NCBI GenBank assembly: GCA_019056435.1
Contig: CP077641.1
Coordinates: forward strand, 2,108,001 to 2,172,000
Length of the DNA stretch: 64,000 nucleotides
Direction of reading: 5' to 3'
Origin: Stutzerimonas stutzeri
GTDB taxonomy: Bacteria; Pseudomonadota; Gammaproteobacteria; Pseudomonadales; Pseudomonadaceae
Part shown: positions 13,427-61,642 of the stretch, one piece after another
How positions within the stretch are numbered: position 1 is the first letter of the stretch
Layout: each line of letters starts with the position of its first letter
The notes under the pieces: generated by a model
The model's input: only the letters and a program-made list of their open reading frames with translations
What the model was told of the DNA's origin: nothing
The model's database searches: none
Translations under genes and position numbers: made by a program

Positions 13427-14235
13427 TGAAAAAGCAAATTGCTGCATTGATTCTTGCACTGGTGCCGGCCTTCGGTTTCGCGGCCGGTGGTGGTGCTCAC
13501 CTGGATGAGATCGATGTCGACCTGACCGACAAGGCGGCGCTGCAGGATGGCCTGAAGACCTTCGCCAACTATTGCATGGGCTGTCATGGCGCTCAGTACC
13601 AGCGCTATGAGCGCGTGGCGACGGATCTTGGTATTCCGGAAGAAATCATGATGGACAACATTGTGTTTTCGGATGCCAAGATCGGCGATCATATGAAGAT
13701 CGGTATGAAGCCGGAAGACGCGAAGGCCTGGTTCGGCGCTGCACCGCCGGACCTGACGCTGGTGGCGCGTGTTCGCGGCAACGACTGGCTGTACACCTAC
13801 CTGCGCAGCTTCTATGAGGATCCGACTCGCCCCTATGGTGTGAACAATACGGTGTTCCCGAACGTCGGTATGCCACACGTCCTGGCACCGCTGCAGGGCC
13901 GGCAGGTCATGCCGAGCAAGCTTCCGGACGGTGAGTCGGTGGCCTGCAAGCAGGTGCAGGTGGTCGAAGACGGGCGCAAGCAGTTCGATCCGTTGACCGG
14001 AACGCCGGTTACCCACGAGGACTGCAGCCAGCTGACAGTGGAGGAGGGTACCGGTACGCTGAGCGAGGCTGAGTACGATCAGCTGGTGCACAATCTGGTG
14101 ACCTTCCTGGCCTATTCGGCGAACCCGGTCAAGCTGGAAAGCCAGCGGATCGGGACCTATGTCCTGCTGTTCCTGGCGTTCTTCTTTGTCTTTGCCTACC
14201 TGCTCAAGCGCGAGTACTGGAAAGACGTTCACTGA
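13426..14235 (+). CDS. petC: PetC, cytochrome c1 of the bc1 complex
   Basis: Heme c subunit passing electrons to soluble cytochromes; 269 residues. A cleavable signal peptide (about 1-20) precedes the CMGCH heme site (C50, C53, H54). A likely axial methionine lies in NVGMPHVL, and one C-terminal membrane anchor ends in LKREYWKDVH. Last gene of petABC, followed by a terminator. Confidence 0.96.
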   Translation: MKKQIAALILALVPAFGFAAGGGAHLDEIDVDLTDKAALQDGLKTFANYCMGCHGAQYQRYERVATDLGIPEEIMMDNIVFSDAKIGDHMKIGMKPEDAKAWFGAAPPDLTLVARVRGNDWLYTYLRSFYEDPTRPYGVNNTVFPNVGMPHVLAPLQGRQVMPSKLPDGESVACKQVQVVEDGRKQFDPLTGTPVTHEDCSQLTVEEGTGTLSEAEYDQLVHNLVTFLAYSANPVKLESQRIGTYVLLFLAFFFVFAYLLKREYWKDVH

Positions 14236-19861: not shown

Positions 19862-20216
19862 AGAGTCGATCGGACAGTCGCTGTCTCTTTTTTGTTCCGC
19901 AAGAAGGGAGGGAGGAAAGTCCGGGCTCCATAGGGCAAGGCGCCAGGTAACGCCTGGGGGCGTGAGCCCACGGAAAGTGCCACAGAAAACAACCGCCTAA
20001 GCACTTCGGTGCCGGTAAGGGTGAAAAGGTGCGGTAAGAGCGCACCGCACGACTGGTAACAGTTCGTGGCTAGGTAAACCCCGCCTGGAGCAAGACCAAA
20101 TAGGGATCCATTGGCGTGGCCCGCGCTGGATCCGGGTAGGTTGCTAGAGGCAGTCAGTGATGGCTGTCGTAGAGGAATGACTGTCCTCGACAGAACCCGG
20201 CTTACAGATCGACTCT
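19862..20216 (+). ncRNA. rnpB: RNase P RNA (M1-type, bacterial class A)
   Basis: Ribozyme that matures tRNA 5' ends together with RnpA. The ends pair perfectly as helix P1: AGAGTCGATC at 19862 and GATCGACTCT at 20207-20216. Conserved cores are present: GAGGAAAGTCCGGGCTCC, CCACAGAAA, GGTAAGGGTGAAAAGGTGCGGTAAGAG (two overlapping blocks), and AGAGGAATGACTG near the 3' end. About 355 nt. The rsmI-rnpB-mraZ order is typical. A weak promoter (TTGCAG, 17 nt, TACCCT) precedes it. Confidence 0.95.
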
Positions 20217-20402
20217 CCGACCTTCTTTTCCCCTCGCTTTTAGTCCGAAAAATTCTTGCTCTTCACAAAGTACTTTAACTTTGTGATGCATCTCTTTGCA
20301 TGCGTTCAGCTTGCCCTTAGTCGGCGATTCTCACGTCGCCGTTTATCCCCGTTTCGCTAGCTAAATTCCCGTCACATAAGGGTTTTTCCCGTCGGGCTCA
20401 CC

Positions 20403-59287: not shown

Positions 59288-59610
59288 CTAAGGTTCGCTT
59301 TGCAACCAGATGCTGCCGTCCAGCTCGGTGCCTGGCAGAGATTTCAGCCTCTGTCCCTCGCAGGGCCAGCGACGCACTCGCCGCTTTCGATCAGAAATAA
59401 GGCACCGTGGGTCGCGCACTGGATAAGGCTCGCGCTGCTGTCGAGAAACTGGTCGGGCAGCCACTCGAGGGGAACACCTCGGTGGGGGCAGCTGTTCTCG
59501 TAGAGATGGATCGCGCCGTCCTTGCGTACGGCGAACAGGCGCTGGCCCGCCACGTCGAAGCCTTTGCTGTGGCCTTCGAGCAGCTCGTCTGCTGCGCATA
59601 ATCGAATCAT
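59288..59610 (-). CDS. Small Rieske [2Fe-2S] ferredoxin-like protein (frameshift)
   Basis: 107 residues from MIRLCAADELLEG. Rieske ligands CPHRG and CATHG are visible. One G is missing from GGG 59363-59365 (plus strand, one C on the coding strand), splitting VAGPCEGQRLKSLPG. The redox partner is unknown. AGGAG precedes the start. Upstream of dsbD on the same strand, divergent from phuW. Confidence 0.78.
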
Positions 59611-59743: not shown

Positions 59744-60625
59744 ATGCGTTTCCTATTCCCTGTCGTGTTTGCCGCCCTGGCTGCGTGCCAGACCGTGCCT
59801 CCGCTTCCGGCGTGGCAGAGTCCCGAGGGGCTCGATCACCCTGACGTCGGGCAGATTCTGGATCTGCGAGGCGACACGACGTTGAGCCCTGCGCAGCTCG
59901 TCGATCACCTGGCCGAGGCGGACCTGTTGCTGATCGGCGAGCGGCACGACAATCCGGATCACCATGCGTTGCAGCTCTGGCTCCTGCAGGCACTGGCCCA
60001 GCGTCGAGAGCAGGGCAGTCTTTTGATGGAGATGATCAGCCCGGACCAGCAGGATCGGGTTCGGCGGGTCCAGACTCTTTTCGCCGAGGGCAAGCCTCCA
60101 GTGGATGTGCCGGTGGCGCTGGCCTGGCAGGACGGCTGGGACTGGAGGCAGTACGGTCCGCTGGTCGAATACGCATTGCGCCAGACTTACCCCCTGCTGC
60201 AGGCGAATCTCGATCGGGGCGAGATCAGTGAAATCTACCGCGGGCAGCCCGAAGTCGACGGGCGAGCCGCAGAGCCGAAGGTCCAATCCGTGCTGCTCGA
60301 GCAGATCCGTCAATCGCATTGCGACCTGCTGCCCCACGGTCAGCTGCCTGCCATGCTCGCGGTGCAACAACAGCGTGACCGGCGTATGGCGCGTCAGATG
60401 AGCCAGGCCCCCTTGCCGGCCATGCCGATCGCGGGAGCCTTCCATGTGCGTCGGGACCTGGGGGTGCCGTTGCACCTTGACGCCAGGCAGTCGGATGAAT
60501 CGAAAGTACTGCTATTGGCTGAAGTGGGCGACACGGTAGGCGCTGAGGAGGCGGACTTCGTCTGGTTCACGCCAGCCCAGCCGTATGTCGATCACTGCGC
60601 CCGCTTCAGGCGCGAGGCGCAGTAA
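59744..60625 (+). CDS. phuW: PhuW-like ChaN-family heme/iron lipoprotein
   Basis: 293 residues. Lipoprotein signal with the lipid cysteine at C15 (FAALAAC). The ChaN/DUF399 domain includes GERHDNPDHHALQLWLL, SLLMEMISP and AGAFHVRRDLGVP. ChaN-type proteins bind stacked hemes. In P. aeruginosa phuW adjoins prrF and cbpA, exactly the arrangement here, which supports the name. No phuRSTUV genes are visible in this window. Confidence 0.82.
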   Translation: MRFLFPVVFAALAACQTVPPLPAWQSPEGLDHPDVGQILDLRGDTTLSPAQLVDHLAEADLLLIGERHDNPDHHALQLWLLQALAQRREQGSLLMEMISPDQQDRVRRVQTLFAEGKPPVDVPVALAWQDGWDWRQYGPLVEYALRQTYPLLQANLDRGEISEIYRGQPEVDGRAAEPKVQSVLLEQIRQSHCDLLPHGQLPAMLAVQQQRDRRMARQMSQAPLPAMPIAGAFHVRRDLGVPLHLDARQSDESKVLLLAEVGDTVGAEEADFVWFTPAQPYVDHCARFRREAQ

Positions 60626-60646
60626 GTGGATGCTTTGTTAGCAGGC

Positions 60647-60759
60647 AAAAAAAGACCCGACAAGAGCCGGGTCAAAAACCGTGATTAGCCTGATGAGGAG
60701 ATAACCTGAAAGTCCGACTGCCTGGCCTTCCAGCTTATCGACTGATCTCGCGATCAGTT
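60647..60759 (-). ncRNA. prrF: PrrF-type iron-responsive small RNA
   Basis: A 113-nt minus-strand RNA starting AACTGATCGCGAGATCAG. It contains the PrrF core GGTTATCTCCTCATCAGG followed by CTAATCACGG. It ends in a terminator hairpin, GACCCGGC-TCTT-GTCGGGTC (one G-T pair), plus T7 (60647-60653). PrrF RNAs are made under iron starvation and, with Hfq, silence mRNAs of iron-rich proteins. The phuW-prrF-cbpA position matches P. aeruginosa, which has two tandem copies; only one is seen here. Recognised from memory, not searched. Confidence 0.9.
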
Positions 60760-60761
60760 GC

Positions 60762-60793
60762 GATAATAATAACAATTCTCATTTCACAGTCAA
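60762..60793 (-). promoter_or_regulatory. prrF promoter and Fur box
   Basis: Minus strand: TTGACT (-35, 60788-60793), 16-nt spacer, TATTAT (-10, 60766-60771), start at 60759. The 19-mer at 60762-60780 matches the Fur consensus GATAATGATAATCATTATC at 15 of 19 bases and covers the -10, so Fur-Fe should block transcription. Confidence 0.85.
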
Positions 60794-60844
60794 CCGCGAA
60801 ACTGTACTTTCTTTGTCACCGTTCGTCGGGCTGAGGCGAAGTGT

Positions 60845-61642
60845 TCAGGCGCTCATCGGCAGACGTAATTGAGTGACTTCCTTGTTAAGGAGGTCGATGC
60901 GGCGGGCCATGCTCTCGATGAGGCTGTGCGCAATCTTTGGATTGCTCTGCATCAGGCTAAGAAACTGATCCTTGGGAATCATCATGACCGTGCAGGGTTC
61001 TGTCGCGACCACGGTAGCGCTGCGCTTTTCGCGGGTGAAAACGGCCATGGCCCCGAATATCTCGTCACGTTGGACATCACCAACCTTCTGTCCATCCACA
61101 ACCGCTTCGGCGTGACCTTCGATGATGACGAAGACGTTATCGGCTTCGTCGCCTTGGCGAATCAGCTCCTCGCCCACAGCGAAATGCTGGAAGCCGGTAG
61201 TCGGGTGGATCTCGGGTTGCTTGAGTCGTGCCAGCGCATCGGACAGCAGGGCAGTCTGGCCAATCAGGTATTCGGTAAAGAGTTCCTGGCGCTGCTGATC
61301 AGCGTGGATATGGGTGAATACATCGCTGCGGGCATAAGGGATCAGTCGTATGGACTCATCACTGCGATACCGGCATTGGGGCAGCTCGATGCCTTGCCGA
61401 AGGCCGAGCAGATCGCCCTCCTGGAGGTAGAAGAGGGGGCGGTCATCGACAAGCGCATGCAGCAGGCCGCTCTCGATGACGAACAATTGCTGCTCCGGCA
61501 GCTGGCTACCCAGATCATTCGATCCCTTGATTTCGATCGGGGCACCAGAAGGGGCGAGGCCTTCGAGAAGCTGGGCGGGGATTCCCTGCAGGCGGTTGAT
61601 GAGGCGGTCGGCGTAGGCCGGTTGTTCCCCGAGTAAATACAT
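60845..61642 (-). CDS. cbpA: CbpA-like cyclic-nucleotide-binding protein
   Basis: 265 residues: an N-terminal region resembling a degenerate cNMP fold (about 20-110), and a C-terminal cNMP-binding domain (about 150-245) with GEELIRQGDEADNVFVIIEG and KRSATVVA. No DNA-binding domain is visible. In P. aeruginosa CbpA, encoded next to prrF, is Vfr-regulated and binds cAMP. The phosphate-binding cassette reads IFGAMAVF, with Ala at the position usually held by Glu. Start chosen at MYLLGEQPAY. Confidence 0.8.
   Translation of the reverse strand: MYLLGEQPAYADRLINRLQGIPAQLLEGLAPSGAPIEIKGSNDLGSQLPEQQLFVIESGLLHALVDDRPLFYLQEGDLLGLRQGIELPQCRYRSDESIRLIPYARSDVFTHIHADQQRQELFTEYLIGQTALLSDALARLKQPEIHPTTGFQHFAVGEELIRQGDEADNVFVIIEGHAEAVVDGQKVGDVQRDEIFGAMAVFTREKRSATVVATEPCTVMMIPKDQFLSLMQSNPKIAHSLIESMARRIDLLNKEVTQLRLPMSA

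Follow-up and report, generated by a model that had tools for sequence, protein, structure and literature searches.

One PrrF small RNA gene between phuW and cbpA in Stutzerimonas stutzeri, with no second copy for PrrH and a possible read-through from cbpA

Does a locus with one prrF gene hold a complete PrrF small RNA, and which of the longer RNA forms known from the tandem prrF genes of Pseudomonas aeruginosa could it make? This question is raised by a 220-nt gap in a 64,000-nt stretch of the genome of Stutzerimonas stutzeri (contig CP077641.1, positions 2,108,001 to 2,172,000), referred to here as the window. A first-pass annotation had placed in this gap, between phuW and cbpA, a single-copy, Fur-controlled PrrF unit on the minus strand, with a promoter, a Fur box, an antisense core and a terminator, and had argued that one copy rules out the longer RNA PrrH. 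Published work is cited below from the parts of each text that were available. The features of the locus are as follows.

59744..60625, plus strand: phuW, ChaN-like haem-binding protein, convergent neighbour (PF04187, 1.1e-41)
60845..61639, minus strand: cbpA, cyclic-nucleotide-binding protein, co-directional and upstream of prrF (PF00027, 2.1e-23; start codon chosen by the analyst)
60646..60793, minus strand: prrF unit, match to RF00444 over the full model (covariance search)
60788..60793, minus strand: -35 hexamer TTGACT, with TTGAC unchanged in all 24 of the aligned genus sequences
60766..60771, minus strand: -10 hexamer TATTAT, 16-nt spacer (promoter scan)
60762..60780, strand not assigned: Fur box that overlaps the -10 and fits the consensus at 15 of 19 positions (consensus scan)
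60647..60759, minus strand: predicted PrrF transcript, about 113 nt long if it starts where the -10 suggests
60680..60705, minus strand: antisense core GTTATCTCCTCATCAGGCTAATCACG, with a single genomic occurrence when up to 3 mismatches are allowed
60647..60673, minus strand: intrinsic terminator, 8-pair stem and T7 (terminator scan)

The covariance search that the first-pass annotation had suggested as a check matched the PrrF family RF00444 at window 60793-60646, on the minus strand, scoring 156.1 bits where the gathering cut-off is 90 (E 1.5e-28) and covering all 150 model positions (1-150). The two neighbouring genes converge on the gap as described: phuW, read from the plus strand, stops at 60625, and cbpA, read from the minus strand, stops at 60845; both are named after P. 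aeruginosa genes, to which we take these two to correspond. The closest named matches to PhuW came from Stutzerimonas at 66%, in a search that may omit records very near the window's own, and a plasmid search gave no match. On its other side in the window, phuW has a Rieske-domain ORF and dsbD as neighbours; the Rieske [2Fe-2S] protein is divergent from phuW (window 59344-59610, minus strand; PF00355, 1.2e-13). Elsewhere in the window, a class A bacterial RNase P RNA was found at 19862-20220 (343.8 bits).

The control elements were all found where they had been proposed. A scan of 501 bases gave two promoter-like sites, this promoter being one of them, whereas shuffled sequence gave a mean of 0.2. 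The Fur box was scored against the Fur consensus; its 15 of 19 matches were reached nowhere else in the 64 kb and in 1 of 2000 single-base shuffles of the 220-nt gap, and the score ranged from 13 to 15 of 19 across 30 genus loci (L001-L030). As far as the sequence goes, the Fur box thus scored overlaps a predicted sigma-70-type promoter, as membership of the PrrF family requires. The terminator stem, at 60673-60654, is followed by seven T at 60653-60647. When 116 nt (60762-60647) were folded, a free energy of -42.5 kcal/mol was obtained (z -3.44 relative to shuffles), and the core was left unpaired in the centroid fold except for its first bases.

These elements are also conserved across the genus group g1, which we infer to be Stutzerimonas, given that the PrrF position in its member G013 (C10:14174-14320) is identical to that in G419, which makes G013 the same assembly as S. 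stutzeri 28a22. PrrF sits between phuW and cbpA in 28 of the 30 fetched genus loci, and promoter, core and terminator are conserved in these 30, of which 24 were aligned, six near-repeats being left out. The core is identical in the 24 aligned sequences apart from one base in L002, while the stems vary around it. The terminator stem is kept in all 24, with both sides of one pair changed in two of them. The consensus fold has to be read with more care: it predicts 43 pairs, of which four are preserved by matching changes in both partners, 12 of the 43 join untranscribed promoter columns to the core and are meaningless, and the second stem is not fully paired in two of the 24 sequences as aligned.

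What the RNA may act on was approached through the core. When up to 2 mismatches are allowed, its 15-nt complement is found four times in the 4.73 Mb genome (twice for a reversed-pattern control): in prrF itself, in the leader of sodB, in another leader and at one intragenic site. Matches to the core before start codons are partly expected, because the core contains UCUCCU, which is complementary to a ribosome-binding site. The complementary site in sodB, of the Fe-SOD type, lies 4 nt upstream of the start codon; the leader of the other SOD has no such site. The predicted duplex between the core and the sodB leader reaches -24.7 kcal/mol; shuffles average close to -14, and the leader of the other SOD gives -13.7. 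Shuffling the leader produced a duplex of equal or greater strength in 2 of 1000 cases, and shuffling the core did so in 4 of 1000. Across the genus, in the 21 of 30 fetched loci that the motif script could read, all 16 leaders of the MAFEL-type SOD, taken here as Fe-SOD, were found to carry the motif immediately ahead of the start codon, and none of the five leaders of the other SOD type did. It has the form CCTGA-N2-AGGAGATA in 15 of these leaders and CCTGA-N4-AGGAGATA in one. ArrF, the PrrF relative of Azotobacter vinelandii, is said to act on sodB, going by the title of a 2008 paper by Jung and Kwon. In the present assembly the sodB frame breaks 126 aa from the start codon (G000:C1:67373 onward; L180, L183); the SOD domain continues in another frame past the break, which may be an assembly error.

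By analogy with its relatives, this prrF would be repressed by Fur, would depend on Hfq and would repress messages. At low iron, Fur would be released from the prrF promoter and PrrF would rise; it would then base-pair with messages of iron-containing proteins such as sodB, and their translation would fall. Induction at low iron via Fur has been reported in relatives (PMC6922518, PMC13104616), and in a fur mutant of P. pseudoalcaligenes the single prrF beside the phu genes went up almost 700-fold (PMC6922518). In P. stutzeri A1501, measurements of PrrF showed a short half-life without Hfq; no Hfq cross-link peak was seen on the RNA there, and the paper words it as positively regulated by Fur (PMC11332353). 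The P. stutzeri PrrF is also among the PrrFs described as complementary to brnD (PMC13104616), and PrrF1 was picked for overexpression in Stutzerimonas in a 2026 paper (PMC13086519).

Taken together, it can be said with great confidence that the window holds one complete PrrF gene, which is predicted to be transcribed once iron-bound Fur leaves its promoter and which then likely blocks messages of iron proteins, for example that of sodB. The family is known and this PrrF is an ordinary, well-preserved case of it; one feature of its neighbourhood, described below, is unusual. A copy standing alone might instead be the decaying, non-working remnant of a former pair, given that two copies are kept in 151 of the 203 genomes of the group g36. 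However, the match is full-length, all control elements are intact, the core hardly varies among genus members, and the RNA has been measured in strain A1501 (PMC11332353), so that decay is hardly credible.

That the gene is single-copy, as first proposed, holds as far as the assembly shows. One match was found in a whole-genome PrrF search at E<=10, and the 26-nt core occurs once at up to 3 mismatches, in an assembly of five contigs that is 94.3% complete, so that the count leans on the genus. A second prrF might lie in the missing sequence, and one member of the genus (G008) does carry two copies about 30 kb apart. It is nevertheless very improbable that such a copy was missed here: exactly one prrF was found in 55 of the 56 sampled genomes of g1, including single-contig assemblies that are 99-100% complete, and two in the remaining one, and one prrF has been reported for P. 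stutzeri (PMC8085936). The intact single gene is the preferred reading. In a wider sample of 398 genomes of the family, one copy was found in 191, two in 199, three in one, four in one and none in six, with stricter filters in all searches over more than 40 genomes, by which weak second copies can be missed. A 2014 review places siblings in nearly all sequenced species (PMC4211561). The single copy is not new: earlier papers give one prrF for P. stutzeri, P. xanthomarina and Azotobacter (PMC8085936) and for P. pseudoalcaligenes (PMC6922518). It offers a one-gene system suited to testing PrrF function without a sibling or PrrH.

Some genomes depart from the common arrangements. In G008, the sole sampled genus member with two prrF genes, the copies lie on the same strand at C3:71095-71241 and C3:101792-101936 with phuW between them. 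One copy (L177) has an APH/AAA-like neighbour, as is also found beside prrF in L012, L036, L041 and L046. The other (L176) adjoins genes that we take to be HDOD-like, cyaY-like and mutM-like, a set of neighbours that no other locus among the 60 of L001-L060 shows. In g36, a prrF away from phuW is flanked in L031 and L058 by a carboxypeptidase-like gene on one side and, on the other, by a short conserved gene that adjoins a LexA/PrtR-like repressor; in L040 one more ORF lies in between. Two genomes of 3.7-3.8 Mb, G397 and Pseudomonas sp. N040 (G441, L092), gave no PrrF match; G397 is one contig, scored 100% complete, and has PhuS.

PrrH of P. aeruginosa arises by read-through from prrF1 into prrF2, according to the available text of PMC4211561. 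This locus is unable to make PrrH, because PrrH requires two prrF copies and one is present, and the argument of the first-pass annotation stands on this point. No two-copy tandem prrF was found in the genome, with its one match at E<=10 and one core, and no match to the HemS/PhuS domain at E<=1e-10. PhuS was found in 6 of the 56 sampled genomes of the genus, all six of them single-copy for prrF. The literature search gave no paper that joins PrrF, stutzeri and PrrH.

A 2021 paper describes tandem prrF and phuS as linked and found only in P. aeruginosa (PMC7948967, as available). This published limit is too narrow. Tandem prrF genes, defined here by a shared strand and a distance of up to about 700 nt, were found in three of the family's genus groups, usually but not invariably together with PhuS, and so extend beyond P. 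aeruginosa and single strains of two further species. In g30 they were found in 22 of 25 genomes, including P. citronellolis, P. jinjuensis and P. schmalbachii (assemblies matched by position), in g36 in 6 of 43 examined multi-copy genomes and in g26 in 4 of 5. By the same definition, G085 (copies about 1.2 kb apart) and G181 (copies on two contigs) were not counted as tandem. Of the 201 multi-copy genomes, 92 were examined for how their copies are arranged: each of the 52 that have PhuS, and 40 of the 149 that do not, some of these 40 being hand-picked. PhuS is present in 27 of the 32 tandem genomes and absent from five, and the tandem arrangement occurs in 27 of 52 PhuS-positive against 5 of 40 PhuS-negative genomes (Fisher p 7e-5, for genomes that are related, with g30 supplying 22 of the 32 tandem cases). 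The linkage of PhuS with tandem prrF is a real tendency, neither exclusive to P. aeruginosa nor strict, and each occurs without the other. A simple rule that PhuS means two copies was rejected, as the PhuS-positive genomes of g36 comprise 41 with one prrF, 18 with two and one with none.

Two genomes of g30 go beyond a pair, with four tandem prrF genes in G201 (C1:5196144-5196914) and three in G214 (C12:531239-531832), which would allow longer PrrH-like RNAs. In another family of the order, G037 has tandem PrrF-like matches at C48:13238-13392 and 13524-13679, at 68 and 84 bits and thus below the cut-off. A wider map of tandem prrF copies was not found in the available text of the literature searched.

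Excluding PrrH still leaves room for other longer forms of the RNA, because no terminator-like hairpin divides prrF from cbpA here. The co-directional position of cbpA upstream of prrF was a point absent from the first-pass annotation.

60794..60844, minus strand: spacer of 51 nt from the cbpA stop to the prrF -35, without a terminator-like hairpin (terminator scan)

The spacer was compared across loci. Of the 116 loci given, 42 could not be used (PrrF or cbpA not found in the locus), and the 74 usable ones, in which PrrF was located by profile, came to 41 in the genus and 23 outside it once exact repeats were counted once. A terminator-like hairpin lies between cbpA and prrF in 20 of the 23 loci outside the genus, against 1 of 41 inside; given how these loci are related, few events lie behind the count. 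The median cbpA-prrF gap is 44 nt in the genus and 93 nt outside, and shuffled gaps gave a hairpin in 12 of 820 and 13 of 460 cases, respectively. With one locus per 90%-identity cluster, the counts are 1 of 35 in the genus and 19 of 22 outside; when the five genus loci titled Pseudomonas, which had been assigned to the genus by the analyst, were taken out, the genus count was 1 of 38. A second scanner agreed in five loci, finding a hairpin in L081 (P. anguilliseptica), L099 and L109 and none in the window or L061. An example from outside the genus is AACCCGGCCTCGCGCCGGGTT with a T-rich tail in L057.

A longer joint cbpA-PrrF RNA made by read-through is possible, because there is no terminator-like hairpin between the two genes. 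PrrF might in that case also be the 3' end of the cbpA transcript, with a supply of PrrF that is possibly independent of iron. The co-directional cbpA, whose stop lies 51 nt before the -35 with no hairpin in between, and the contrast between the genus and its relatives, which survives clustering, speak for such read-through. On the other hand, Rho could end the cbpA transcript, and the hairpin may be dispensable, being absent by rule from L039, L074 and L104 outside the genus as well (in L074 a hairpin remains and its tail fails the rule). The genus exception, L091, has a weak hairpin, and the loci are related. We regard this read-through as a tentative proposal that is rather unlikely to hold. 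It would in any case add to the Fur-controlled promoter, not replace it. The wider proposal, that the barrier is absent throughout Stutzerimonas and that PrrF has two sources there, the Fur-controlled promoter and read-through from the cyclic-nucleotide-linked cbpA, is doubtful, a little more so than read-through at this locus. If it were true, a second input that does not depend on iron would be preserved for the single copy, comparable to the haem input that P. aeruginosa has through PrrH. The lack of a terminator next to cbpA makes a specific prediction, which would link cyclic-nucleotide and iron control. No description of it, or of a joint cbpA-PrrF RNA, was found in passages from two of the papers that cover cbpA with prrF.

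Compared with RyhB of Escherichia coli, PrrF is likewise an iron-repressed small RNA that shuts down iron-containing proteins, but it has no sequence homology to RyhB and belongs to a different family (PMC4211561, as available). ArrF of A. vinelandii is described, in the part of the source available, as repressed by Fur with iron. P. stutzeri, P. xanthomarina, A. vinelandii and strain ABC1 likewise have one prrF per genome, with no apparent difference between the present gene and the single prrF published for P. stutzeri; in the available text on these single-prrF genomes, no description of the spacing to cbpA was found (PMC8085936). P. pseudoalcaligenes CECT 5344 also has a single prrF downstream of the phu genes on the opposite strand, and a Rieske protein neighbours the phu genes there too. 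It differs in that a phuSTUVW operon adjoins, whereas no PhuS homologue was found here (PMC6922518, as available). From PrrF1 and PrrF2 of P. aeruginosa, the present gene differs in being one copy and not two in tandem, hence without PrrH, and in the lack of a PhuS homologue at E<=1e-10. It resembles them in the sequence and structure family RF00444, in the Fur box over the promoter, in the core and the terminator, in a length near that of PrrF1 (116 nt) and PrrF2 (114 nt) (PMC2851614) and in its place next to phu genes (PMC7948967).
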